From: Candidatus Calditenuaceae archaeon
GTDB taxonomy: Archaea > Thermoproteota > Nitrososphaeria_A > Caldarchaeales > Calditenuaceae
DNA length: 64,000 nt
Direction: 5' to 3'
Assembly: GCA_025058175.1 (NCBI GenBank)
Contig: JANXED010000004.1
Coordinates: 1-64,000 of the forward strand
Shown here: piece after piece, positions 6,733-55,532 of the stretch
How positions within the stretch are numbered: position 1 is the stretch's first letter
Layout: each line of letters starts with the position of its first letter
The notes under the pieces: generated by a model
What the model was told of the DNA's origin: nothing
The model's input: the letters and a program-made list of their open reading frames with translations, nothing else
Database searches by the model: none
Made by a program: the position numbers and the translations under genes

Positions 6733-7674
6733 TCAGTACATCTCCCTCAGCTGCTCGGCGGGCAGGAACTCCTCCTCGAGCCTCCGGTACCTCTCGATTC
6801 CCACCAGGGAGTGGTGGTCCGCGGTCGGGAGACCCTTCTCCTGAAGCTCCAGCTCCCACTGGGCCTCCTCCTGACGCTCGGCGAGGGCCTTCGCGAACTT
6901 GTAGACCGCCATCATCTCTGCGTGGAGGGCGCCCATGCTCACCACGATCAGCTTGTAGCCCCTCGAGGCGACCTCGGAGAACCTCAGCGGCCGCTTCGAC
7001 TCGGTCCACTTGAAGCTCGAGGAGTAGTTGAAGACTAAGGGGACGTCCGGGTACTCCCTCTTGACGCGCTCGGCGAACTCCCAGGCCAGCTCGTCGTCGG
7101 GCCTCCTGAACTCCGCCCAGAGGGCGTCGGCCCCCGCGTCCCTGAACGCGACAGCCCTTTTGACCGCCTCCTCGAGCGTCCCGCCCTTCGTTCCCAGCAC
7201 GTCGGTCCTCGCGATCAGGAAGAAGTCCGGGTCGACCGCGTCCCTCCTCCTCGCGAGGGATTTCACCTTCAGCACGGCCTCCTCGAACCCGATCACCCTC
7301 TTCCCCGCCAGGTGGCCGCACCGCTTCGGGAACCTCTGGTCCTCGACGTGAATGGCCGCGACTCCTGCAGCGACGAACTCCTCAACGGTCCTCGTCGCGG
7401 TCACGGCGTTACCGTAGCCGTCGTCCGCGTCTGAAATCACGGGGATGCTCACCGCCCTCGCTACCCGGCCCGCGAACTCGACCATCTCGGGGAGCGTGAG
7501 GAACCCGATGTCCGGTCTCACCAGGTACCCAATCGAGCAAGAGTACCCGCTGACGTAGACCGCCTTCAGCCCCACCATCTCGACGAGCTTCGCCTGGATC
7601 GGCGTGTAGACTCCGGTCGTCCAGACGTAGTCCTCCTGCCTGAGGAGCCTCCTCAGCTCCCTGCTCCTGTCCAC
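6733..7674 (-). CDS. Isocitrate lyase/PEP mutase family enzyme, likely (methyl)isocitrate lyase
   Basis: 313 residues, GTG start, with a TATA-like box (GGATAAAG at 7695-7702) 25 nt upstream. The TIM-barrel signature SDADDGYGN is at 81-89 (metal-binding acidic residues) and KRCGH is at 117-121. C119 corresponds to the catalytic cysteine of isocitrate and 2-methylisocitrate lyases, which separates it from PEP mutases and oxaloacetate decarboxylases. Its length fits 2-methylisocitrate lyase (about 290-310) better than long isocitrate lyases. The likely reaction is cleavage of a C6/C7 tricarboxylate into succinate plus glyoxylate or pyruvate. A thiolase and an MDR dehydrogenase are divergently placed beside it, consistent with short-chain acid metabolism. 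Substrate specificity is not decided. Confidence 0.78.
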   Translation of the reverse strand: MDRSRELRRLLRQEDYVWTTGVYTPIQAKLVEMVGLKAVYVSGYSCSIGYLVRPDIGFLTLPEMVEFAGRVARAVSIPVISDADDGYGNAVTATRTVEEFVAAGVAAIHVEDQRFPKRCGHLAGKRVIGFEEAVLKVKSLARRRDAVDPDFFLIARTDVLGTKGGTLEEAVKRAVAFRDAGADALWAEFRRPDDELAWEFAERVKREYPDVPLVFNYSSSFKWTESKRPLRFSEVASRGYKLIVVSMGALHAEMMAVYKFAKALAERQEEAQWELELQEKGLPTADHHSLVGIERYRRLEEEFLPAEQLREMY

Positions 7675-7770
7675 GTGGGGACTCAGGCTCGTCCGGATAA
7701 AGAGTTCGACCCGACCGGGTCCAATGGGACGCCCACGAAGGTCGGCCGTACCCCGTTACGTAGCACAACA

Positions 7771-7777
7771 ATTATTA
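7771..7777 (+). promoter_or_regulatory. Promoter of the thiolase gene
   Basis: An AT-rich block ATTATTA inside the 7767-7800 AT-rich stretch is centred about 30 nt before the TTG at 7805. It supports that TTG as a leaderless start. Confidence 0.45.
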
Positions 7778-7804
7778 TCACGCTTAACTGTAAAATAAAT
7801 CGAG

Positions 7805-8983
7805 TTGGGTAGGAGGGTCGCGGTAGTAGGCATCGGTATAACGCGGTTCGGCAGGAGGTCCGACGCGTCGCTCAGCGAGCTGGCCTTCGAGGCCGGCAGG
7901 GAGGCAATTAGGGACGCGGGGATAGAGCCGAAGGACGTGAGGTTCCTCTCGGTGGGGAACGTGGGCGCGTGGAGCGCCGAGCCCCTTCCGGCGGTTCTGG
8001 TCGCGGAGTACCTCGGGCTGGACAACCCAGGGTCGATGAGGGTAGAGGCGGCCTGCGCTTCGGGGAGCGCGGCGATCAAGGTCGCCTACGACGCGGTCGC
8101 CTCCGGATCGGTCGACGTCGCGATGGCCTTAGGCGTCGAGAGGATGAACGAGTCACCGACGCCGAACGTCGTCGAGCTGATAGGCCGCGCGGGGAACTAC
8201 TTCTGGGAGTTCGAGAACTTCGGGCTGACCTTCCCGGGATACTACGCGATCTACGCCACCGCGTACATGGACAAGTACGGCGCGAGGGAGGAGGACATCG
8301 CTGAGGTCGCCGTGAAGAACCACTACTACGGCTCGATGAACCCTTATGCGCAGTTCCAGAGGCCGGTGAAGCTCGAAGAGGTGATGTCATCGCGGTACAT
8401 CGCGTGGCCCCTGAAGCTCCTCGAGTGCTCCCCGATCACCGACGGGGCTGCAGCGGCCGTCCTGGCCTCGGAGGAGGTCGCGAGGAAGCTTACCGACTCG
8501 CCGGTCTGGATCAGGGGGATGGGCTACGCGACGGGGACCTCAAACCTCTCGAAGAGGCAGGACTTCCTGGGGCTCGAGCCCGCGGCGAGGGCAGCCAGGC
8601 AGGCATACGCGGAGGCCGGAATAGACCCCGAGAGGCCCTACAAGCAGATAGACGTCGCGACCGTCCACGACTGCTTCTCGATCGCGGAGATCCTGGCTTA
8701 CGAGGACCTCGGCTTCGCGAGGAGGGGAGAGGGCTACATGCTGCTGAAGGAGCACCAGACCTACATCGGCGGCTTGGTGCCTGTCAACCTCGACGGAGGC
8801 CTGAAGGCTAAGGGTCACCCGATCGGCGCGACGGGCGTCGGGATGGCGGTCGAGGCGGTCAAGCAGCTCCGGAGGAAGGCCGAGCCCGGAAGGCAGGCGG
8901 ACATAAGGAACGGCGTCGCGCTCACCCACAACGTCGGCGGGACCGGTCATTACGCCTACGTGACCGTCTACTCGATCGACTGA
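7805..8983 (+). CDS. Thiolase family protein (acetyl-CoA acetyltransferase), catalytic residues intact
   Basis: 392 residues, TTG start. Archaeal/SCP2-type thiolase fold. The nucleophile is in EAACASGSAA (C84), the second region is TVHDCFS, and H338 lies in the KGHPIGATG motif. All the residues expected for Claisen condensation or thiolysis of acyl-CoAs are present. This is unlike the two thiolase-fold proteins near 50-52 kb, which have lost them. In many archaea such enzymes are encoded beside a DUF35 partner; none is adjacent here. An MDR dehydrogenase gene follows in the same direction but has its own TATA box. The likely role is acetoacetyl-CoA or longer 3-ketoacyl-CoA turnover. Confidence 0.87.
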   Translation: MGRRVAVVGIGITRFGRRSDASLSELAFEAGREAIRDAGIEPKDVRFLSVGNVGAWSAEPLPAVLVAEYLGLDNPGSMRVEAACASGSAAIKVAYDAVASGSVDVAMALGVERMNESPTPNVVELIGRAGNYFWEFENFGLTFPGYYAIYATAYMDKYGAREEDIAEVAVKNHYYGSMNPYAQFQRPVKLEEVMSSRYIAWPLKLLECSPITDGAAAAVLASEEVARKLTDSPVWIRGMGYATGTSNLSKRQDFLGLEPAARAARQAYAEAGIDPERPYKQIDVATVHDCFSIAEILAYEDLGFARRGEGYMLLKEHQTYIGGLVPVNLDGGLKAKGHPIGATGVGMAVEAVKQLRRKAEPGRQADIRNGVALTHNVGGTGHYAYVTVYSID

Positions 8984-33493: not shown

Positions 33494-33527
33494 AGTGTTC
33501 GGCCCCTGCCCGGTTAGGCGTGGTGAG

Positions 33528-34547
33528 GTGGCGGGCACACGGTTTTTGACGGGGAATCGGTCCGATGGCGGGGAGTTGAGGGTCGAGGCGCACCTCTCCG
33601 GAAACCTCCCCAGGGGTGATTCGGTCTTCAGGGTCCTCAGGAGGCACTCGAGGGGCAAGGCCGGATGGGAGGAGGTGAGGGCCGCGGCTGAGGCGGAGAC
33701 CGCCGAGTGGGTCAGGCTACAGGCGGAGCTAGGCCTGAGGCCTGTCACGGACCCGATGCTGCTATGGCACGACCACTTCAGGCCGTTCGCGGAGAACGTC
33801 AAGGGGATGGCCGTCGACGGGCTGAGGAGGTGGTACGACAACAACCTCTTCTACAGGGCTCCGGTGGTTTTCGGGAGGCTCGGGTTAGGAGACCCGTTCC
33901 TCGAGAGGTACCTCTTCCCCGTGGCCCTCAGGGGCCTCGAGGTCAAGCTGGTCATCCCCGAACCCCTCACTTTCGCTAGGCTCTCCGTCAACAGCGGCTA
34001 CACGGACCATGCGGAGCTCGCGATGGACCTAGCAGAGGTCACTTCGGCCGAGGCCTCTAGGCTGGTCTCGAGGCACGGGCTCAGCGTGAGTCTGGTCCAG
34101 CTCAGCGCGCCGGAGCTCGCGAGGGAGCTGAGGGCCGACGACCTCGAGCTGGTCAGGGAGGAGGTGGGACTCTTTAAGCGGAGGCTCGGGTGCAAGGTCC
34201 AGCTCCACACGTTCTTCTTCTCAGCGGCTAGGAGCCTCAGGTCGCTGCTCGACACCGGGGTTGACGTGATCGGGATAGACCTTCACGCGACGCCGGCCTC
34301 CGCGCTCAAGGGCGTGGACGTCGACAGGGAGCTTGCGGTCGGTGTGGTCGACTCGCGGAGCGTCGTCGTGGAGGAGCCCGGGTGGATGGCGTCGCTAGCT
34401 GAGAGGGCCGTCGAGGCGACCGGCGCGAGGGCAGTTCACGTCACCACGAACACGGACCTCGACTTCCTCCCCGCAGGCGTCGCGAGGGAGAAGGTGCGTG
34501 CGCTGTCGGCGTGTGCGAGGCTGTTGAGGGAGAGGTGGGGGACTTGA
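33528..34547 (+). CDS. Methionine synthase, N-terminal (MetE-N-like) protein
   Basis: 339 residues from the GTG at 33528 (open frame from 33495). It is a TIM-barrel related to the N-terminal half of cobalamin-independent methionine synthase: RPVTDPMLLWHDHFRPFAEN, YDNNLFYRAPVVFG and FYLIPEPLTF-like VIPEPLTFARLS segments. It lacks the zinc ligands of the catalytic half, which is encoded by the next gene. In split MetE systems this half binds the methyl donor. It overlaps the catalytic gene by 4 bp (TTGA). Confidence 0.8.
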   Translation: MAGTRFLTGNRSDGGELRVEAHLSGNLPRGDSVFRVLRRHSRGKAGWEEVRAAAEAETAEWVRLQAELGLRPVTDPMLLWHDHFRPFAENVKGMAVDGLRRWYDNNLFYRAPVVFGRLGLGDPFLERYLFPVALRGLEVKLVIPEPLTFARLSVNSGYTDHAELAMDLAEVTSAEASRLVSRHGLSVSLVQLSAPELARELRADDLELVREEVGLFKRRLGCKVQLHTFFFSAARSLRSLLDTGVDVIGIDLHATPASALKGVDVDRELAVGVVDSRSVVVEEPGWMASLAERAVEATGARAVHVTTNTDLDFLPAGVAREKVRALSACARLLRERWGT

Positions 34548-35668
34548 CCGGAGGCGAGGTCCTCTTCAGGACCCAGGAGGTCGGGAGCCTCTCGAGGGCG
34601 CCGTTCCTAAAGGGCAGCTTGGAGGAGAAGGCCTTCCAGGCCAGATACTGGGGGATCAGGCTTGGCGTCGAGGGACACGAGGAGCTGGTTGAGCTGATCA
34701 GGAGGGGCGCCGGAACGTCGGAACTGCTGCCGTGGGCCTCGCTCTACGGGATCAGGTTCCACGAGGCCGCGGGGCTCGACGTCGTCTGGGACGGGGAGCA
34801 GAGGAGGGTCGAGATGTACGAGCACCCCCTCATGCACGTCGAGAACTTCGAGTTCGTGGGGAGGGTTAAGGTCTGGGACGCGGAGACCTACAACAAGGCG
34901 AAGCTAGTGGGGCCTCCGAGGCTGAAGTCCAGCGCCTACCTCGAGGAGTTCCTCTTCGCGAAGTCTAAGGCCACGAAGGAGCTGAAGGTCCCGGTCACGG
35001 GGCCGTACACCCTGATGGACTGGAGCTTCGACGACTACTTCGCGAGGCGCTACGCCCACCTCGAGGACCCGCTGGAAAGGAGAAGGAGGTCGAGACTCGA
35101 CTTCCTCTACAGCCTGATAGAGGAGGTGATGAGACCCGAGCTGAGGGCGCTCGCGGAGGCCGGCGCGAGGAGGATCCAGGTCGACGAGCCAGCGCTGACC
35201 TCGAAGCCCGAGGAGGTGAGGGACTACGTCGAGGCCTTCAACGAGATGGTGAAGGGGTTGGACGTCACTCTCACGCTCCACGTCTGCTACAGCGATTACT
35301 CACTGCTCCTTCCCCACGTGGCCGAGATGAGGATTCACGAGCTCTCGATAGAGTGCGCCAACAGGGACACGACCGACCTCGGCCTAGACGCGAGGGCTAG
35401 GAGGGGCTACTCGATACTGAGGGAGTTCGGGGAACACGACGTCCCGTTCAAGATAGCGCCTGGCGTGATCGACGTCCACACGGACTTCGTCGAGCCGGCG
35501 GAGCTCGTGAGGGACAGGCTGCTCTACGCGGCCAAGCTCCTGGGAGACCCCGCGAAGGTGATTGCCTGTAACGACTGCGGCCTCAGGACGAGAGGGTGGG
35601 AGGTAGCGTTCGAGAAGGAGCGGAGCCTCGTCGAGGGCGCTGGGCTGGCGAGGAGGGCCTCCTCCTGA
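34544..35668 (+). CDS. Methionine synthase, catalytic (MetE-C-like) protein
   Basis: 374 residues from the TTG at 34544. The frame is open from 34511, and the TTGA overlap matches other operons here. Zinc and homocysteine-binding residues of MetE are present: His and Cys in TLHVCYSDY, Glu in ELSIECANR and Cys in VIACNDCGL. It transfers a methyl group to homocysteine. The methyl donor (a folate/pterin or a corrinoid protein) is not shown by the sequence. The separate N-terminal gene suggests the split crenarchaeal type rather than a stand-alone core enzyme. Confidence 0.87.
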   Translation: MTGGEVLFRTQEVGSLSRAPFLKGSLEEKAFQARYWGIRLGVEGHEELVELIRRGAGTSELLPWASLYGIRFHEAAGLDVVWDGEQRRVEMYEHPLMHVENFEFVGRVKVWDAETYNKAKLVGPPRLKSSAYLEEFLFAKSKATKELKVPVTGPYTLMDWSFDDYFARRYAHLEDPLERRRRSRLDFLYSLIEEVMRPELRALAEAGARRIQVDEPALTSKPEEVRDYVEAFNEMVKGLDVTLTLHVCYSDYSLLLPHVAEMRIHELSIECANRDTTDLGLDARARRGYSILREFGEHDVPFKIAPGVIDVHTDFVEPAELVRDRLLYAAKLLGDPAKVIACNDCGLRTRGWEVAFEKERSLVEGAGLARRASS

Positions 35669-46932: not shown

Positions 46933-46977
46933 GTGGTGCGGATTCATCACCATATTGAGAGGGAAGGCCCCTCCTGA
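46933..46977 (+). other. Possible upstream ORF/leader peptide with strong Shine-Dalgarno
   Basis: AAAGGAGGTGG around 46919-46929 is the best Shine-Dalgarno match noticed in the window. It is about 5 nt before GTG-GTG at 46933-46938. That frame encodes a 14-residue peptide with three consecutive His (VRIHHHIE) and a TGA at 46975-46977, overlapping the first codons of the E1 alpha gene in another frame. It could be a translational leader or simply a misplaced start signal. Confidence 0.3.
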
Positions 46978-48019
46978 CCCGGAGACGCTCGGGCTCTCCA
47001 GCGAAGACTTGACGAGGATGTACAGGACGATGGTCCTGACGAGGGTCCTCGACAGGTACCTGCTGAGGCTCCAGAGGATGGGGAAGGTAGCGCTCTACGC
47101 CGAGACGATCGGCGAGGAGGCGGTCGGTGTGGGGACCGGTTACGCGTTGAGGCCCGAGGACGTGTTGTTCCCGTCCTACAGGGAGCTGGGGGCCTTCCTG
47201 ATGAGGGGGGTCCCGGTCTCCGAGATCCTCGACAGGATGCTGAACACCGTCGACGACCCGCTGAAGGGCCACGAGTTCGCGATCTTCGGCGACAGGAGGT
47301 ACAACATAGTGCCCGCGCCCACACCGGTCGCGACCCAGATACCCTTGGCCGTTGGCTACGCTATGGCGTCGAAGGTCAAGGGCGAGAGGATCGTTGTGAT
47401 GACGATCTTCGGGGACGGCGCGACCTCGAAGGGCGACTTCCACGAGGGCGTCAACTTCGCGAGCGTCCACAAGCCCCCCGTCGTCTTCGTCTGCAGGAAC
47501 AACCAGTACGCGATCTCGACCCACGTCAGCAAGCAGACGGGCTCGAGCACCATCGCCCAGAAGGCGGTGGCCTACGGGCTCGAGGGGATCAGGGTGGACG
47601 GGAACGACGTCCTCGCAGTCTACCTGACGACGAGGGCCGTAGTCGAGAGGGTTAGGGACGGAGGTGCACCGGTTCTGATAGAGGCCCTGACCTACAGGCT
47701 GGGCGCTCACACCACCAGCGACGACCCGAAGCGTTACAGAACCGAGGAGGAGGTACAGAGGTGGGCGAAGCTCGACCCGATAGAGAGGATGAGGGGTTAC
47801 CTGATCGCGAAGGGCGTGATCGACGAGGAACGGGACGTGGCGCTCAGGGCTGAGATAGAGGGACTGGTCGCGGCTGAGGTCGAGAGGGCCCTCCAGAGGC
47901 CGGGGCTCGAGCCGGCGGTGATCTTCGAAGACGTCTACGCCTCGCCTCCCTGGACCCTGCTCGAGCAGGCGGAGGAGCTCAAGGAGCTCTCGGGCCTCCA
48001 GAAGGTGACCAAGGGATGA
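46955..48019 (+). CDS. 2-oxoacid dehydrogenase E1 component, alpha subunit
   Basis: 354 residues from the TTG at 46955, the first start in frame. Thiamine-diphosphate motif [20 protein letters not shown] and the downstream [12 protein letters not shown] are typical of branched-chain/pyruvate E1 alpha chains, as is the phosphorylation-loop-like [14 protein letters not shown]. It decarboxylates a 2-oxoacid (pyruvate or branched-chain) for transfer to a lipoyl E2. The stop overlaps E1 beta (ATGA). No E2 or E3 gene is present nearby. TATA-like AGCTAATTAC near 46895-46905. Confidence 0.9.
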
Positions 48020-48990
48020 CCGTGATGACTTTCGCCAAGGCGATCAACGACGCCCTCCGGCACGAGATGAAGCGGGACGAGAGGGTCGTGGTCTTGGGCG
48101 AGGACGTCGGGGTCAACGGAGGCGTCTTCAGGTGCACGGAGCACCTGCTGATGGAGTTCGGGCCCTCGAGGGTGATAGACACGCCGCTCTCCGAGTCGGC
48201 CATCATCGGGGTCGCGATAGGGATGGCGATGAACGGCCTCAGACCGGTCGCGGAGATCCAGTTCTCCGACTTCATCTTCGGCGGCTTCGAGCAATTGGTC
48301 TCCAACCTCGCCAAGATCAGGTACAGGAACGCGGGCCACTACTTCGCACCCGTCGTGGTGAGGGCCCCTGTAGGGGGCGGAGTGAGGGGAGGCATGTACC
48401 ACTCCCAGAGCCCCGAGGCCTACTTCGCCCACACGGCCGGCCTGAAGGTCGTGATACCCTCGACCCCCTCGGACGCGAAGGGGTTGCTTATCTCATCGAT
48501 AAGGGACGAGGACCCGGTGATCTTCTTCGAGCCGAAGAGGCTCTACCACTCGCTGAGGGAGGACGTCCCCGACGGCGACTACACTGTCCCGCTCGGGAAA
48601 GCGAGGCTCGTGAGGGAGGGCGATGACGTATCCGTGATCACCTACGGCGCCACGGTCTACGACGCCCTCGAAGCGGCCGAGAGGGCGGCGAAGGAGGGGG
48701 TGAGCGTCGAGGTGCTGGACCTAAGGACGATAGTTCCCTACGACTGGGAGGCGATATCGAGGAGCGTGAGGAAGACCGGTCGACCCGTGATCGCCCACGA
48801 GGCCCAGAGGACCGCGGGCTTCGGGGCCGAGATCGCCGCGATGATCGCAGAGAGGGAAATCTACAGCCTGGAGGCGCCCGTGCTCAGGGTGACAGGCTAC
48901 GACACGCCGTTCCCGCTCGTCCACGAGCACCACTACCTCCCGAACCCGGAGAGGATTCTCAGGGCGATAAGGAGGTCGGTCGCGTCGTGA
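48016..48990 (+). CDS. 2-oxoacid dehydrogenase E1 component, beta subunit
   Basis: 324 residues. N-terminal [38 protein letters not shown], the [19 protein letters not shown] segment and the C-terminal transketolase-like domain ([15 protein letters not shown]) define the E1 beta chain. It forms an alpha2beta2 enzyme with the upstream subunit. Overlaps both neighbours by 4 bp (ATGA, GTGA), so E1 alpha, E1 beta and the acyl-CoA dehydrogenase are one translational unit. Confidence 0.93.
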
Positions 48991-50165
48991 GCGCGGTCAG
49001 GGTCCTCTCCCACGACCTGCTCAGCGACGAGGAGAGGTTGGTCCTGAAGGCGGCTAGGTCCGTCGCGGGCTCCTTCGGGAGGAAGTACTGGCTGGAGAAG
49101 TGGTCGCTTGGTGAGGAGCCGAGGGAGCTCTGGAAGAGGATGAAGGATGAGGGACTCGCGGGGACCGGCGTCCCGGAGGACCTCGGGGGCTCCGGAATGG
49201 GCCTGATGGGGGCGGTGCTGGTCCAGGAGGGCTTCGCGCTGGAGGGCCTCCCGATGATCCAGTTCCTCGTGACCCACTTCGTCAGGGACATCATCCTGAA
49301 AGCTGGGACGAGGGAGCAGAAGGAGAGGTTCGTCACGCCCACCTGCGTCGACGGGAAGAGGTTGAGCTTCGCCCTGACCGAGCCCCAGGCCGGCTCGAAC
49401 ACCTGGAGGATCTCGACGTTCGCGAGGAGGGAGGAGCGCGGCTACGTTCTCAGGGGCCAGAAGGTCTTCATCAGCGGCGCAGGCGAGTCCGACTTCATGA
49501 TGGTCGTCGCGAGGACCAAGAGGTACGAGGAGGTCAGGGACAAGCGCGACGGGATATCGATCTTCGTCGTGGAGACCGACAGCCCGAACCTCAGGCTCCA
49601 GAGGCTGAACATCGACACGAAGTCACCGGAGTGGCAGTACATGGTCTACTTCGACGACGTCGAGGTCCCACCGGAGAACCTCATCGGCAGGGAGAACGAG
49701 GGCTACCGGGCCCTCTTCCACGGCCTGAACGTCGAGAGGCTGATGATAGCCGCGATAGCCGTCGGGCTCGGGACCTATGCGCTCGCCAGGGCCGCGGAGC
49801 ACGCGAGGCAGAGGGTCGTCTTCGACGTCCCCATCGGATCCCATCAGGGCGTCCAGTTCCCGCTCGCGAGGGCCCTGATCAAGCTGGAGGCCGCCAGGTC
49901 CCTCATCTATTCAGCGGCCCGACTCTACGACAACGACGCCGGGAGCGTCGAGCTCGCCAACGCCGCGAAGTTCATGGCTTCCGAGGCGGCCGTTGAGGCC
50001 CTGGACGCGGCGGTCCAGACCTTCGGAGGGTACGCGTGGGACTTCGAGACCGACGTCCTCAACCTCTACCCGATCGTGAGGCTCTTCAAGACGGCGCCCG
50101 TGACCAACGAGCTGATCCTGAGCTACATCGCCACCCACGTCCTCAGGCTCCCGAAGTCCTACTGA
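48987..50165 (+). CDS. Acyl-CoA dehydrogenase
   Basis: 392 residues, GTG start overlapping E1 beta. FAD/acyl-CoA signatures: [34 protein letters not shown], and the C-terminal helical domain with [20 protein letters not shown]. It oxidises an acyl-CoA to the 2,3-enoyl-CoA using an electron-transfer flavoprotein. Coupling to E1 suggests the chain branched 2-oxoacid to acyl-CoA to enoyl-CoA, as in Val/Leu/Ile breakdown; that is an inference from the operon. Confidence 0.92.
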
Positions 50166-50220: not shown

Positions 50221-51342
50221 ATGAGGCGAGTCCTAGTCGTGGGACTCGGCGAGTTCTCACCGAAGGCGCGCGAGACCGGTCTCGAGATCAGGGAGATGAC
50301 CTTCGAGGCGGCTGAGAGGGCGTACCTGGACGCGGGCCTAAGGCCGGAGGACGTGCAAGGGATCGTCTCGTCGGGGCTCGACTTCAACGAGGGCGTCAGC
50401 ATCACCGACTCCTTCACGCCCGACCAGGTCGGAGGCAGGCTGAAGTTCAACATGCTGGTCTCAGGGGACGCGCTGGAGGCAGTCTATCACGCGTTCATGA
50501 TCGTGAGGTCAGGGATGCTGGACGTCGTCCTGGTCGACGGACACGCGAAGCCCTCCGAGATCGAGAACTACGGGGACGTGCTGCGGTGCTCCCTCGATCC
50601 TTACTGCTCGAGGCCCCTCGGCTTCGACCCCTATGTGATAGCGGGCCTCGAGGCCAGAGCCTTCCTCGCGAGGACCGGGACCGACCCTGTGGCGTTCTCG
50701 AAGGTCGCCGCCAAGAACATCAACAGGGCCGCGCTGACGGGAGGGCCCTACGGCGAGAGGGTCTCACCGGAGGATCTCGAGTCGGACGGCTACCTCTATG
50801 CGCCGCTCAGGAGGAGGCACGTCGCGAGGCCTTCGGACTACGCCGGCGTGGTCCTACTCGCGGCTGAGGACGCGGTCCCCGTGCCCGAGGAGTGCGTCGA
50901 GCTGGTCGCCGTGGAGAGCGCGGGCTCCAGCTCAACCCCGCACTTCTGGCTCAGGGACTGGGGCAGGGCGAGGTGGGTCGGAGCGGCCTTGAAGAGGATC
51001 GAGTCGAGGCACGGAGCAGACCCGAGGGACGTCGACTTCGTCGAGATGACCGAGTTCTTCGCGCACCAGGAGCTCATGATAGCCTCGGAGCTCGGGATCG
51101 ACCCTGGAGTCCACCTCGACGGCAGGTCGGGGCCGGTCGTCAACCCGTCGGGAGGTTGCCTGGGGAACGGGAACTCCCTTACGGCCTCTGGGATGAGGGC
51201 CTTCATCGCGTCGGTCAAGCAGCTGAGGGGGGAAGCGGGGGCGGTCCAGGTCAGGGGCGCGGAGAGCGGGCTGGTGGTCTCGACGCACTCGGAGATAGCC
51301 GAGATCGGGACGGTCGCGCTCCTCAGGAGGTCGGGAGGATGA
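50221..51342 (+). CDS. Thiolase-fold protein lacking catalytic Cys and His (first of a pair)
   Basis: 373 residues from the ATG at 50221. The overall thiolase fold is clear: RRVLVVGLGEFSPKARETG at the start, KVAAKNINRAAL and a DAVPVPEE region in the middle, NPSGGCLGNGNSLTASG near the end. But the nucleophile region reads NMLVSGDALEAVYH, so the Cys of C-A-S-G is replaced (Leu by my alignment). The His of GHP(I/M)G is Asn in GNGNS. It cannot do standard thiolase chemistry. The next gene encodes a second such protein (ATGA overlap), followed by two DUF35 proteins. Confidence 0.8.
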   Translation: MRRVLVVGLGEFSPKARETGLEIREMTFEAAERAYLDAGLRPEDVQGIVSSGLDFNEGVSITDSFTPDQVGGRLKFNMLVSGDALEAVYHAFMIVRSGMLDVVLVDGHAKPSEIENYGDVLRCSLDPYCSRPLGFDPYVIAGLEARAFLARTGTDPVAFSKVAAKNINRAALTGGPYGERVSPEDLESDGYLYAPLRRRHVARPSDYAGVVLLAAEDAVPVPEECVELVAVESAGSSSTPHFWLRDWGRARWVGAALKRIESRHGADPRDVDFVEMTEFFAHQELMIASELGIDPGVHLDGRSGPVVNPSGGCLGNGNSLTASGMRAFIASVKQLRGEAGAVQVRGAESGLVVSTHSEIAEIGTVALLRRSGG

Positions 51343-52493
51343 GGCGGGTAGCGATAGTGGGGGCGGGGATGACCGACTTCAGGTCGATGCTCCCGCTGAC
51401 CTCGCCGGAGATGATCAGGCTCGCGGTCAAGAGGTGCCTCGACGACGTCGGCGGCCTCTCGATCAGGTACGTCGACGGAGTCCTCGCGACCTCTGCTCCC
51501 GACGCCTTCGACGGGTACCACGATAAGGGCGCGATCGCGGTCGAGGCCGCGGGCGCCATCGGGAAACCCATCACGAGGGTCTTCGTCGGCGGGGGGAGCG
51601 GCGTGGCCGCGGGGGTCGCGGGCTGGTACCACGTGGCCTCCGGAGCCTTCGACACCCTGCTGGTGGTCGCGTGGGAGAAGATGAGCCACCCGTACCCGCA
51701 CGCGCAGAAGCTCTTCCAGACGATCTTCGACCCCGTCCTCGAGAAGCCCCTCGGCCCCAACCTCATCTGGATCTTCGCGCTGGAGATGATGCGGTACATG
51801 GAGGCCCACGGTCTGAAGAAGGAGCTGATCGCGGAGGTCGCGGTGAAGAACAAGAGGAACGCGCTCGACCACCCCCATGCCCAGCTAGGTGCCAGGATCA
51901 CCGTCGACGACGTCCTGAACTCGGAGGTGCTAGTCTGGCCGGTGAACAGGTTGGACATCAGCCCGACTTCGGACGGCGCGGTCGCTCTCCTGCTAGCCTC
52001 CGAGGAGGTAGCGAAGAAGCTCACCGACAACCCAGTGTGGATCGAGGGCGTCGCAACCTGTCTCGACTCGCAGTTCTGGACGATGAGGGACCTCGCTTAC
52101 CCGTACTACGTCTACTTGGCCGCCCAGATGGCATACAGGATGGCGAAGATCACGTCGCCGCTCAAGGAGGTCGACGTCTGGGAGCCCTACGACCCGTTCA
52201 CATACAAGGAGCTTCACCACATGGACGGGCTGCTCGGGAGGCCGGGCCTCGCGCCGAAGCTACTCGCCGAGGGGCAGATGGAGAAGGACGGTGACTGCCC
52301 TACGACTCCCTCGGGAGGTCTCCTCGGCGTGGGGAACCCGATAGCGGCTGCGGGCCTGATGAAGGTCGCCGAGCTCTACTTCCAGCTCTCGGGGAGGGCT
52401 GGGAAGAGGCAGGTGCCCGACGCGGAGGTGGGAGTGGCCCAGGCGTGGGGAGACCTGATGCAAGTCGGGACTGTGGTGGTGTGCAGGAGATGA
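51339..52493 (+). CDS. Thiolase-fold protein lacking catalytic Cys and His (second of a pair)
   Basis: 384 residues from the ATG at 51339; the frame is open further upstream only inside the previous gene. The start RRVAIVGAGMTDFRS and VAVKNKRNALDHPHAQ are thiolase-like. The nucleophile loop reads VFVGGGSGVAAGVAGWYHV with Gly for Cys. The second active-site region is EPYDPFTYKELHH, with Tyr residues instead of the HDCF motif. The last motif is GVGNPIAAAG with Asn for His. Together with its neighbour it may form a heteromeric thiolase-like enzyme. Overlaps DUF35 gene 1 by 4 bp. Confidence 0.82.
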   Translation: MRRVAIVGAGMTDFRSMLPLTSPEMIRLAVKRCLDDVGGLSIRYVDGVLATSAPDAFDGYHDKGAIAVEAAGAIGKPITRVFVGGGSGVAAGVAGWYHVASGAFDTLLVVAWEKMSHPYPHAQKLFQTIFDPVLEKPLGPNLIWIFALEMMRYMEAHGLKKELIAEVAVKNKRNALDHPHAQLGARITVDDVLNSEVLVWPVNRLDISPTSDGAVALLLASEEVAKKLTDNPVWIEGVATCLDSQFWTMRDLAYPYYVYLAAQMAYRMAKITSPLKEVDVWEPYDPFTYKELHHMDGLLGRPGLAPKLLAEGQMEKDGDCPTTPSGGLLGVGNPIAAAGLMKVAELYFQLSGRAGKRQVPDAEVGVAQAWGDLMQVGTVVVCRR

Positions 52494-53137
52494 GCGCGAG
52501 GGTCGTGAGGTACGGACCGGAGCAGCTCGAGGGTCTCCCGGCATCGTTCGCGGGGTTCCTGAGAAGGGCGACCGAGGAGGTCGGATCGGGCAGGGAGCAG
52601 TCGTGGTCTAAGGCCGTCTCCGAGTTCAACGAGAGGGTCCCGGAGATGGCGCTCCCGGGCTTGGTCGTGCAGCCCTGGCTCTTCGACTTCAGGTACAGGA
52701 GGGCGACCGGAGAGGCGGTCGGGAGGTTCCTCGAGGGCCTTAAGGAGGGCAGGATAATCGGGACCAGGTGCGAGGGGTGCGGGAGGGTCTTCATTCCTCC
52801 GAGGTCCTTCTGCGAGCTCTGCTTCAGGCGCGTCAGGACCTATGTCGAGCACAGCGGCGAGGGCGAGGTCGCTACCTACTCGGTCGCTTACATCGGCACC
52901 AACCCGAGGGAGAGGCTCGCGAGGCCCGAGGTCGTCGCGGTGATCTGGTTCGAGGGAACGAAGGTCGTCAGGCCCAACTCGCACCACGTCTTCCACGCGG
53001 CAGGACTGATGCACAAGCTCGGCGAGGTCGAGCCCAGCGAGGTCAGGATCGGGATGAAGGTCAAGCCGGTCTGGAGGCCGAAAGAGCAGAGGAGGGGCGA
53101 GATCACCGACATATTGTACTTCGCTCCGGTGAGGTGA
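52490..53137 (+). CDS. DUF35 zinc-ribbon/OB-fold acyl-CoA-binding protein (1)
   Basis: 215 residues from the ATG at 52490. An N-terminal helical region of about 70 residues precedes the DUF35 domain: a rubredoxin-like zinc ribbon (CEGCGRVFIPPRSFCELC) and an OB fold (GEVATYSVAYIG, VIWFEGTKVV). DUF35 proteins are obligate partners of archaeal thiolase/HMG-CoA synthase complexes and of Ltp2-type aldolases, channelling acyl-CoA. It is translationally coupled to the degenerate thiolase gene. Confidence 0.9.
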   Translation: MSARVVRYGPEQLEGLPASFAGFLRRATEEVGSGREQSWSKAVSEFNERVPEMALPGLVVQPWLFDFRYRRATGEAVGRFLEGLKEGRIIGTRCEGCGRVFIPPRSFCELCFRRVRTYVEHSGEGEVATYSVAYIGTNPRERLARPEVVAVIWFEGTKVVRPNSHHVFHAAGLMHKLGEVEPSEVRIGMKVKPVWRPKEQRRGEITDILYFAPVR

Positions 53138-53138
53138 G

Positions 53139-53531
53139 ATGGAGTACCATCACACGGTTGAGAACGCCTACGAGTACCCGGCTGGCAGGGGGATGACCGC
53201 CTACCTCGAGGGGCTGAAGGAGGGGAAGCTGGTTGGGATGGAGTGTGAGGGCTGTGGAGAGCGAATGATACCGCCGCTCGGGTTCTGCACCAAGTGCATG
53301 TCGCACGACGTCAAGTTCGTTGAGGCGCCACAGGTCGGAACGGTCTTGACTTGGACGACGGACCCGGAGGGCCTGAAGTGGGTCTTCGTCTGCTTCGAGG
53401 GCTTCGAGGGAGGGATCCTCCACAGGTTCGTCGGGGACGGCGAGCCGCGGGTCGGGATGAGGGTGAGGCCGAAGTTCAGGGGCAGAAGGGTAGGAAGCGT
53501 CCTGGACCTGCTGGGCTTCGAGCCCGTCTGA
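53139..53531 (+). CDS. DUF35 zinc-ribbon/OB-fold acyl-CoA-binding protein (2)
   Basis: 130 residues. Zinc ribbon CEGCGERMIPPLGFCTKC followed by an OB fold (GTVLTWTTDPEGLKWVFVCF and GMRVRPKFRGRRVG). Shorter than its neighbour, lacking the long N-terminal extension. One base pair separates the genes. Two DUF35 proteins with two thiolase-fold proteins suggests one DUF35 per thiolase chain or two alternative complexes. Confidence 0.88.
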   Translation: MEYHHTVENAYEYPAGRGMTAYLEGLKEGKLVGMECEGCGERMIPPLGFCTKCMSHDVKFVEAPQVGTVLTWTTDPEGLKWVFVCFEGFEGGILHRFVGDGEPRVGMRVRPKFRGRRVGSVLDLLGFEPV

Positions 53532-53543
53532 GCGCCACCGGAC

Positions 53544-55532
53544 CTACTGCTTCTTTCCCCTCATCTGCTCCGCGAACCTCTCGTAGAACTCGAGGCACTC
53601 GGCGTTCACTATCGCCTCCCTGTTCGTGACCGGCCTGCCCCTCAGTATGTTCGCGACTGCTATCTCCACCTTCTTCAGGTTGAAGGTGTAGGGGATGTCG
53701 GGAGCCTGGACTATAAGGTCGGGGACGTGCCTCGGCGATGCCTCCTCCCTCAGCCTCCTCCTGATCCTCTCCTTCAGCTCCTCAGTGAGCTCCTGGCCCT
53801 CCCTCAGCTTCACGAAGAGGACCACCCTGACGTCGTCGCCCTCGCCGTAGCCGACCGCCAGGCTGTCCGCGACCTCCGGGACCGTCTCGACGATCCTGTA
53901 GATCTCCGCGGTCCCTATCCTCACGCCCTTCACCTTGAGGGTCGCGTCGGACCTCCCGTGGATCACCGTGCTCCTCGTGTCTGAGAAGATCGTCACCCAG
54001 TCTCCGTGCCTCCAGACGTTCCTCCCGACGTGCCTGAAGTGCTCGAAGTAGCTCTCGAGGTACCTCCTGTTATCAGGGTCGTTCCAGAAGTAGACGGGCA
54101 TCGACGGCGAGGGTGCCTCACAGACCAGCTCGCCCTCGACGTCGTAGACCGGGTTGCCGCGCTCGTCGTAGGCCTTGACCTTCATCCCCAGAGCTGGGGC
54201 CTGGAGCTCGCCGGCGTAGACGGGAAGGGTCGGGCTGCCCGCGAAGAAGCACCCGTTGATGTCGGTCCCGCCGGAGATCGAGTTGAACCAAAGGTCGCGC
54301 TTGACGTGCTCGTAGGCCCAGACGAAGCCCTCCGCGGACAGAGGCGAGCCCGTCTGGGAGATCTCCCTGAGTCCGCCCAGGTCGAAGGCCTCGCCGGGCT
54401 CGGCGTTGGCAGCCCTGAGGGCGTTGACGTAGCTCGCGCTGCATCCGAGGACGTTGATCCCCTCCTCCTCGACGACCCTCCACATCGTCCTCCAGTCGGG
54501 GTGGAGCGGGTTACCGTCGAAGACTACCAGCTTCGACCCTACCGCGAGCGAGCTCGTGACCCAGTTCCACATCATCCAGCTCGGCGAGGTGATGTAGGTG
54601 ATTGCGTGCTCAGGCCTGAGGTCGTGGTGGAGGACGAGCTCCTTCAGGTGGTTGACCAGGACGCCGGCGACGCTCTGGACCATGCACTTCGGCCTCCCAG
54701 TGGTCCCGGAGGAGAACATCACGTAGACCGGGTGGTTCGCCTCCACCTGCTCGAACCTCAAGGCCTCGGCCTCCCCCTTCCCGGAGAGGACCTCCGTCGT
54801 GGCGATGGCGTTCGGTATGCTGGAGACGTCGACCCTCTCCTTCCTCCTGCTGATCACCAGGACCCTCCTGAGCGAAGGCACGGCCCTCGCGATCCTCGTG
54901 ACGGTCTCCCTCAGGTCCGTCGTCCTCCCCTTGTACGTCGAGCTGTCCACCGTGACCAAGACCTTCGGCTCGAGCTGGCCGAGCCTGTCGACGACCGCGG
55001 TGTAGCCCATCTCTGTCCCCGTGGAGGCCCAGATGGCGCCTAGGCTCGTGGCGGCGAGCATGCAGATCACGGTCTCGGCGACGTTCGGCATGTAGGCGAC
55101 GACCCTGTCACCGACGCCGACCCCCTCCTCCTTCAAGAACTCCCTGTACCTCGCGACCTCGAGGTGTAGGTCCCTGTAGGTGTAGACATCCCTCTCCAGG
55201 GACTCGTCCCGCTGGACGATCGCGACCCGACCGTCGTCATGCCTGAGGAGGTTCTCGGCGAAGTTGAGCCTCGCCCCGACGAACCACCTCGCGCCGGGGA
55301 ACTTGCTGAGGTCGTCGACGACCGCGTCGTAGGGCCTTGAGGACTTGATCCCCAGGAAGTCCCAGGCGTCTGACCAGAACTGCGGAACGTTCTCTATCGA
55401 CCAGTCGTAGAGCTCGAAGTAGCCCGTGAGCTCCAGGGACCTCCTCCTGTTCACGAAATCGATGAACGCGGAGACGTTCGAACGGCTGACGTCCTCCTCG
55501 GAGGGCGACCAGAGGAGCCTGTGGGACGGCAT
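53544..55532 (-). CDS. Acetoacetyl-CoA synthetase-like acyl-CoA ligase
   Basis: 662 residues. An AMP-forming ligase with P-loop FSSGTTGRPKCMVQS, the ISGGTDINGCF motif, GELVCEAPSPSMPVYFW and the C-terminal KVKGVRIGTAEIY hinge. The ISGGTDI and N-terminal FIDFVNRRRSLELTGYFELY regions point to the acetoacetyl-CoA synthetase branch. It activates acetoacetate or a related acid to its CoA ester with ATP. Convergent with the DUF35 genes, so it may feed the same pathway. A TATA-like CTTATATG (minus strand, 55556-55563) lies about 27 nt upstream. Confidence 0.9.
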   Translation of the reverse strand: MPSHRLLWSPSEEDVSRSNVSAFIDFVNRRRSLELTGYFELYDWSIENVPQFWSDAWDFLGIKSSRPYDAVVDDLSKFPGARWFVGARLNFAENLLRHDDGRVAIVQRDESLERDVYTYRDLHLEVARYREFLKEEGVGVGDRVVAYMPNVAETVICMLAATSLGAIWASTGTEMGYTAVVDRLGQLEPKVLVTVDSSTYKGRTTDLRETVTRIARAVPSLRRVLVISRRKERVDVSSIPNAIATTEVLSGKGEAEALRFEQVEANHPVYVMFSSGTTGRPKCMVQSVAGVLVNHLKELVLHHDLRPEHAITYITSPSWMMWNWVTSSLAVGSKLVVFDGNPLHPDWRTMWRVVEEEGINVLGCSASYVNALRAANAEPGEAFDLGGLREISQTGSPLSAEGFVWAYEHVKRDLWFNSISGGTDINGCFFAGSPTLPVYAGELQAPALGMKVKAYDERGNPVYDVEGELVCEAPSPSMPVYFWNDPDNRRYLESYFEHFRHVGRNVWRHGDWVTIFSDTRSTVIHGRSDATLKVKGVRIGTAEIYRIVETVPEVADSLAVGYGEGDDVRVVLFVKLREGQELTEELKERIRRRLREEASPRHVPDLIVQAPDIPYTFNLKKVEIAVANILRGRPVTNREAIVNAECLEFYERFAEQMRGKKQ

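Follow-up and report, generated by a model that had tools for sequence, protein, structure and literature searches.

A widely conserved archaeal cassette annotated as thiolases and DUF35 proteins probably encodes a heteromeric acyl-CoA aldolase

The window analyzed here, a stretch of 64,000 nucleotides (nt) from a hot-spring Candidatus Calditenuaceae archaeon (contig JANXED010000004.1), carries a four-gene cassette encoding two thiolase-fold proteins, T1 and T2, followed by two DUF35 proteins, D1 and D2. The four make up a genuine enzyme set that is conserved widely but misnamed, most likely an aldolase of the kind formed by the Ltp3 and Ltp4 proteins of actinobacteria. Judged from sequence, T1-T2-D1-D2 probably forms a heteromeric retro-aldolase that depends on coenzyme A (CoA) thioesters and cleaves 3-hydroxyacyl-CoAs. 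As far as literature searches show, an aldolase of the Ltp3/Ltp4 kind would be new for archaea. The four genes are as follows:

50221-51342, + strand: T1, thiolase fold, 373 amino acids, the putative degenerate partner chain (NCBIfam PRK06066, 217.5 bits; cut-off 516)
51339-52493, + strand: T2, thiolase fold, 384 amino acids, the proposed catalytic aldolase chain (NCBIfam PRK06065, 566.8 bits; cut-off 455)
52490-53137, + strand: D1, DUF35 protein (zinc ribbon plus OB domain), 215 amino acids including an N-terminal extension
53139-53531, + strand: D2, second DUF35 protein, 130 amino acids

Active sites of the two thiolase-fold chains

The functional argument begins with six sites, assigned by alignment to the archaeal acetoacetyl-CoA thiolase 6ESQ:

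50461-50463, + strand: T1 Ser81, at the position of the nucleophilic Cys
51049-51060, + strand: T1 T277-E-F-F, where HDCF is expected
51172-51174, + strand: T1 Asn318, at the position of the GHP His
51591-51593, + strand: T2 Gly85, at the position of the nucleophilic Cys (Gly in 98 of 98 loci)
52188-52199, + strand: T2 Y284-D-P-F, at the position of HDCF, with Tyr284 the proposed catalytic base (YDPF in 98 of 98 loci)
52335-52337, + strand: T2 Asn333, at the position of the GHP His (Asn in 98 of 98 loci)

The two marks of a catalytic thiolase, the nucleophilic Cys (CxSG-type motif) and the GHP His, are thus both absent from T2 and from the window T1. All six scored T2 columns (G, Y, D, P, F and N) are invariant across the 98 loci, which were chosen by T2 similarity, none of the six search peptides spanning a scored column; at least five of these loci are second copies of the same contig. 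Among 92 T1 partners, the Cys position is occupied by S, A, T, G, C or P, the HDCF His position by D, S, E, H, N, T or C, and the GHP His position by Y, N, H, V, W, D or F. The first-pass annotation had described two degenerate thiolases, both without the Cys and with Asn for the GHP His, one of them bearing a Tyr-containing segment in place of HDCF. For the window this is accurate, the segment being that of T2. In the T1 family at large, however, the Asn occurs in some lineages only, and the chains are not equivalent: canonical residues are lost in both, but the T2 site appears repurposed, conserved but of a different kind, and only the fast-drifting T1 resembles a dead partner.

T2 also has the highest mean pairwise identity (71%, compared with 51% for D1, 49% for T1 and 40% for D2). 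The ratio of nonsynonymous to synonymous substitution rates (dN/dS) between the window and a close relative, L008, is 0.04 for T2, 0.17 for T1 and 0.14 for both D1 and D2, figures that are rough because dS approaches or exceeds 1. Purifying selection acts on all four genes (dN/dS about 0.04–0.17), and the order T1-T2-DUF35-DUF35 is found on one strand in 80 of the 88 loci with room on both sides, the window not counted. The cassette is not a chance arrangement, since its order and residues are kept across many phyla and its four genes are under purifying selection. Because the T2 site is invariant while T1 drifts at the positions of the Cys, the HDCF His and the GHP His, the catalytic chain is likely T2, with T1 a pseudoenzyme partner. 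(On a Rhodococcus rhodochrous plasmid, L113, a T2-like protein at 7092-8258, next to a T1-like protein that has diverged strongly, has F-N-P-L for Y-D-P-F. With the proposed catalytic Tyr gone, its activity may be a different one.)

Could T1 and T2 nevertheless be ordinary thiolases, or partners of a 3-hydroxy-3-methylglutaryl-CoA (HMG-CoA) synthase, with catalytic residues elsewhere in the sequence? The automatic name, "thiolase domain-containing protein", and the top fold matches would suggest so. However, all 98 T2 loci lack both the Cys at the nucleophile position and the GHP His, and the operon lacks an HMG-CoA synthase gene, which makes this reading extremely improbable. With no Cys nucleophile in T2, the acyl-enzyme mechanism used by thiolases, PhlC and BbsB is ruled out at that position; the sequence supports no firmer statement on function than this.

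The PhlABC acyltransferase and the benzoylsuccinyl-CoA thiolase BbsAB are likewise complexes of thiolase-fold and DUF35 proteins, and PhlA is a dead partner like T1; both systems, however, catalyze via a nucleophilic Cys, whereas T1 and T2 have no Cys at that position. Like PhlA and PhlB, which assist PhlC, the cassette might instead have no catalytic role of its own and serve a separate, canonical thiolase as a scaffold or as a carrier of acyl-CoA. Besides the likeness of T1 to a PhlA-type partner, DUF35 was originally proposed as an acyl-CoA carrier (PMC2954200), and a canonical Cys/His thiolase with a DUF35 protein is encoded divergently beside the cassette in about 16 Bathyarchaeia loci. 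Yet the invariance of the T2 site and the slower rate of T2 than of any of its partners would be unexpected for a scaffold, and at most loci, the window included, the operon has no canonical thiolase, so that a scaffold is decidedly unlikely.

The coordinates and the domain assignments agree with the description of two thiolase-fold and two DUF35 genes that overlap or abut. T1 starts with the ATG at 50221 and shares 4 nt with T2 (ATGA at 51339), T2 shares 4 nt with D1 (ATGA at 52490), and 1 nt separates D1 from D2. Pfam identifies the thiolase C-terminal domain in both T1 and T2 and the thiolase N domain in T2; D1 has zf-ChsH2 and OB_ChsH2_C, both above cut-off, and D2 has zf-ChsH2 above cut-off and a weak OB match below it. 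AlphaFold2 models of T1 and T2 (mean predicted local distance difference test score 90 each) have the thiolase fold. T2 is a member of PRK06065; the window T1 falls under the PRK06066 cut-off, and its relative at L012 scores 517.9 bits. The predicted zinc ligands of the DUF35 proteins are well conserved:

52769-52822, + strand: D1 zinc ligands C94, C97, C108 and C111 (each kept in at least 75 of 76)
53244-53297, + strand: D2 zinc ligands C36, C39, C50 and C53 (kept in 68-72 of 72)

The best relative of D1 in the PDB is SSO2064 (3IRB; E = 1.2e-17). PRK06065, PRK06066 and SSO2064 look like uncharacterized parts of the same cassette in Sulfolobales. Their names and a 2010 paper point to thiolase or polyketide roles, as opposed to the aldolase proposed here, and a look at the literature on SSO2061-2063 turned up nothing useful.

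Relationship to known aldolases

What, then, might T2 catalyze? In the steroid aldolase TcLtp2 (Y294DHF) and the bile acid aldolase CtSal (Y302DCY), the Tyr of the motif is the catalytic base, the backbone amide of a Gly is the proposed binding partner of the 3-hydroxyl, the aldolase dimer has a DUF35 domain on either flank, and the proton donors are Tyr344 in Ltp2 and Cys304 in Sal (PMC12329534). T2 combines the same Tyr, in a Y-D-x-F/Y motif, with Gly in place of Cys. It has these features and a DUF35 partner in common with Ltp2-ChsH2 (PDB 6OK1); with Sal-Shy (PDB 9MYR) it shares the Gly and the Tyr, and the DUF35 proteins on both sides of the Sal dimer match what is proposed, from the genes, for T1-T2-D1-D2. 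These resemblances to proven aldolases lend support to the earlier suggestion of an acyl-CoA aldolase or lyase, an activity that is predicted from sequence. On the other hand, both systems have one aldolase gene where a T1-T2 pair is found here, the donors Tyr344 and Cys304 correspond to Asn333 and Pro286 in T2, and both belong to a separate clade.

This last point comes from a careful maximum-likelihood tree of 52 proteins, which resolves T1, T2, the Ltp3-like proteins, the Ltp4-like proteins, Ltp2/Sal and the thiolases as single groups, every one supported at 98/96 or better (100/99 for Ltp2/Sal). A branch with 100/99 support separates T1, T2, Ltp3-like and Ltp4-like proteins from the thiolases and Ltp2/Sal. 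T2 as a member of the Ltp2/Sal clade is thereby ruled out, and the first-pass choice of Ltp2 as the nearest analogue has to be given up. T2 joins T1 and Ltp4 (96/82) rather than Ltp3. As Ltp3 does not come out next to T2, the most plausible reading is that the common ancestor of T1, T2, Ltp3 and Ltp4 already had the Gly/Tyr/Asn set and that T1 lost it. (A further archaeal thiolase in the window, at 7805-8983, is distinct from T1 and T2 and was placed with the canonical thiolases.)

The closest known system appears instead to be the locus of Ltp3, Ltp4 and a double-DUF35 protein (Rv3521-Rv3523 type). By way of a search of plasmids, actinobacterial loci were identified in Tsukamurella (L118), Nocardia (L117) and Nonomuraea (L120), all with the gene order double-DUF35, Ltp4-like, Ltp3-like; the order in M. 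tuberculosis is Rv3521, ltp4 (Rv3522), ltp3 (Rv3523) (PMC6429209). In L118, the Ltp4-like protein belongs to PRK07937 ("lipid-transfer protein") and the Ltp3-like protein to PRK08313 ("thiolase domain-containing protein"). By gene order and family name, rather than by comparison with the Rv sequences, the actinobacterial proteins seem to be of the Rv3521/Ltp4/Ltp3 type. Like the archaeal cassette, this type of locus encodes paired Cys-less thiolase-fold proteins and two DUF35 modules, one chain having Gly, Y-x-P-F and N-P and the other being degenerate. The L118 Ltp3-like protein (AGSVGG, EIYVPF, SNPIGASG) has the same three replacements as T2; its Ltp4-like neighbor (ELHAPFTHQEL, GNPMFSAG) is comparable to the window T1 (EMTEFFAHQEL), although Ltp4-like proteins and T1 differ in residues. 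The actinobacterial DUF35 modules are fused in one gene, placed first, whereas the archaeal cassette has two genes, placed last. The cassette would be the same four-part set with the DUF35 genes split. On the Cupriavidus plasmid pBB1 (L112), the archaeal order T1-T2-D1-D2 is found. Ltp3 and Ltp4 have been reported to be aldol-lyases essential for the breakdown of C24-branched sterol side chains (Wilbrink 2012, as cited in PMC6273163 and PMC6593523).

A mechanism can be outlined on this basis. The operon, its conservation, the residue replacements, the phylogeny and the gene context are direct observations, whereas the complex, the catalytic roles, the direction of the reaction and the substrate are inferred. 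T1 and T2 would probably form a heterodimer flanked on either side by a DUF35 protein, so that four genes would encode the DUF35-aldolase-aldolase-DUF35 arrangement known from Sal and Ltp2. Tyr284 would remove the proton of the substrate 3-hydroxyl, and cleavage of the C2-C3 bond would release a ketone or aldehyde and leave an acyl-CoA enolate. The enolate would be held by main-chain amides around Gly85 and Gly371, together with Asn333, and then reprotonated by an acid, for which Asp372 is a candidate. The T1 pseudoenzyme would complete the dimer and may shape the pocket.

Several points weigh against such an aldolase. T2 does not have the second proton donor of the proven aldolases, having Asn333 and Pro286 at the respective positions. 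Since it lies outside the Ltp2/Sal clade, the common Tyr could be convergent and used differently, and the function of Ltp3 and Ltp4 itself rests on genetics. The top structural matches of the T1 and T2 models are thiolases (Foldseek TM-scores 0.8–0.93), and the overall fold cannot separate an aldolase from a thiolase; fold comparison, tried as a discriminator, was uninformative and was dropped. There is no hydratase gene within the operon. Finally, pairwise distances among the four genes correlate (r = 0.79–0.88), but this reflects shared descent too.

A strongly constrained T2 without the second aldolase acid could instead belong to an active enzyme with another non-covalent acyl-CoA reaction, such as decarboxylation of malonyl- or methylmalonyl-type CoAs, hydration or dehydration, or thioester hydrolysis. 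TbSLP, which has Y-D-C-F and no nucleophilic Cys, slowly decarboxylates malonyl-CoA (PMC12329534), and some ten Bathyarchaeia loci have methylmalonyl-CoA mutase and MeaB genes downstream of the cassette. However, the same authors propose TbSLP to be an aldolase, the Thermoproteota neighbors are dehydrogenases, ligases and 2-oxoacid oxidases rather than carboxylases, and the genetics of Ltp3/Ltp4 indicates aldol cleavage. Another reaction of this type is therefore unlikely, and a retro-aldolase remains the preferred interpretation.

Distribution, gene neighborhood and possible substrates

The cassette is found in Bathyarchaeia, Asgard archaea, Geothermarchaeota, and Sulfolobales-type and other Thermoproteota; the nearest sequenced relatives of the window are Candidatus Calditenuis and other Calditenuaceae. 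T2 exceeds its family cut-off in 34 of 151 genomes of the phylum and, among 14 control genomes, in Sulfolobus acidocaldarius only. The system is not purely archaeal, as had been supposed, related sets being found in Chloroflexi-type metagenome-assembled genomes (MAGs), MAGs named Anaerolineales, Symbiobacterium and others, and in Cupriavidus and Rhodococcus. In a few cases (L043, L056, L061 and L101), T1-T2 pairs have no same-strand adjacent DUF35 genes; L043 has two on the opposite strand nearby, and none were found nearby in the other three. In the window, the cassette is flanked by the following genes:

46955-48019, + strand: 2-oxoacid dehydrogenase E1 alpha, first gene of the operon (TIGR03181, 414.8 bits; cut-off 411.35)
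48016-48990, + strand: 2-oxoacid dehydrogenase E1 beta (PRK09212, 317 bits, below the cut-off of 321)
48987-50165, + strand: acyl-CoA dehydrogenase, same operon, with a GTG start overlapping the E1-beta stop
53544-55532, - strand: acetoacetyl-CoA synthetase, convergent with the operon (TIGR01217, 765.6 bits; cut-off 520.9)

E1-alpha and E1-beta overlap by 4 nt, as do E1-beta and the acyl-CoA dehydrogenase gene. With these overlaps and only 55 nt between the dehydrogenase gene and T1, the seven genes from E1-alpha through D2 are probably on one transcript. As to the partners proposed earlier, the acyl-CoA dehydrogenase and acetoacetyl-CoA synthetase, an acyl-CoA dehydrogenase or acyl-CoA ligase gene often adjoins the cassette, as a 2-oxoacid oxidase gene does in places, but the acetoacetyl-CoA synthetase link is specific to the Calditenuaceae neighborhood.

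In Calditenuaceae the operon includes E1-alpha/beta, and three further genomes of the genus have an E2 gene. An indolepyruvate-type 2-oxoacid:ferredoxin oxidoreductase is encoded near the cassette in two Sulfolobales-type loci, two Jordarchaeia/Freyarchaeota loci and Nitrosocaldus. Because two unrelated enzymes that make acyl-CoA from 2-oxoacids are found beside the same cassette, an amino-acid-derived branched acyl-CoA is suggested, though not proven, as its substrate. A weaker clue is Glu250 at the helix-G position of the window dehydrogenase, combined with Pro where most relatives have a C-terminal Glu, a pattern present in all Calditenuaceae cassettes. Isovaleryl- and long-chain acyl-CoA dehydrogenases typically have Glu on helix G. 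What makes the clue weak is that the Sulfolobales-type dehydrogenases at the same place differ.

In the pathway proposed here, a 2-oxoacid (via E1, or IorAB elsewhere) or a free acid (via acyl-CoA ligase) would be converted to an acyl-CoA, which would be oxidized by the dehydrogenase, hydrated by an enzyme encoded elsewhere and cleaved by the retro-aldolase. The most reasonable substrates would be tertiary 3-hydroxyacyl-CoAs of the 3-hydroxy-3-methylacyl-CoA type, from β-branched leucine- or isoprenoid-derived chains, since these cannot be oxidized to 3-ketoacyl-CoAs. The enzyme might also work in the synthetic direction, adding acetyl- or propionyl-CoA to an aldehyde or ketone to supply 3-hydroxyacyl-CoAs for biosynthesis. 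The reaction is reversible in principle, and such archaea often do without acyl carrier protein-based fatty acid synthesis (PMC6449355), but the genes next to the cassette (for acyl-CoA dehydrogenase, acyl-CoA ligase and 2-oxoacid oxidase) point to breakdown and the known relatives are catabolic; a biosynthetic role is very unlikely.

One specific route considered was the conversion of leucine via 3-hydroxyisovaleryl-CoA to acetone and on to acetoacetate, for the neighboring acetoacetyl-CoA synthetase. This loop is not supported, because the acetone carboxylase gamma subunit was missing from all four genus genomes searched (one 91% complete) and present in one of 11 genomes of the family. A link to the Sulfolobus FadR fatty-acid cluster was also rejected, the T2 gene lying at 2.07 Mb in the S. 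acidocaldarius-like genome G081 and the cluster at 903-932 kb.

Other neighbors vary by lineage. In the ten or so Bathyarchaeia loci with downstream methylmalonyl-CoA mutase and MeaB genes (L011-L019, L029, L042, L103), the mutase is represented by its large and small subunits, and propionyl-CoA may be a product there. The divergent canonical Cys/His thiolase, mostly with its own DUF35 gene, lies upstream of the cassette in L011-L021, L029, L030, L033, L039, L042 and L065. Genes judged by sequence to be formylmethanofuran dehydrogenase-like lie downstream in L022, L033, L038 and L106. Elsewhere in the window, at 33495-35668, a pair of neighboring genes resembles cobalamin-independent methionine synthase, both far under the curated cut-offs.

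Implications for archaeal acyl-CoA metabolism

Under the "thiolase-domain" naming used in many archaea, T1 and T2 risk being counted as the last step of β-oxidation or as a step of the mevalonate route. If they are aldolases, archaeal pathway reconstructions that use them as thiolases hold a wrong step. The operon would also offer a thermostable and genetically accessible model (T2 being present in S. acidocaldarius) for the Ltp3/Ltp4/double-DUF35 enzyme, which has so far been backed by genetics. It is possible, though doubtful, that the cassette represents a general archaeal means of breaking down β-branched acyl-CoAs derived from leucine or isoprenoid lipids, including pieces of archaeal-type isoprenoid lipids, by a heteromeric Cys-free aldolase whose signature is ancestral to the bacterial Ltp3/Ltp4 sterol enzymes. 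On this reading it would supply the missing retro-aldol step for chains that ordinary β-oxidation cannot handle. More broadly, if T1 and T2 are aldolases, archaea would gain a way to cleave branched chains where a thiolase route is lacking.

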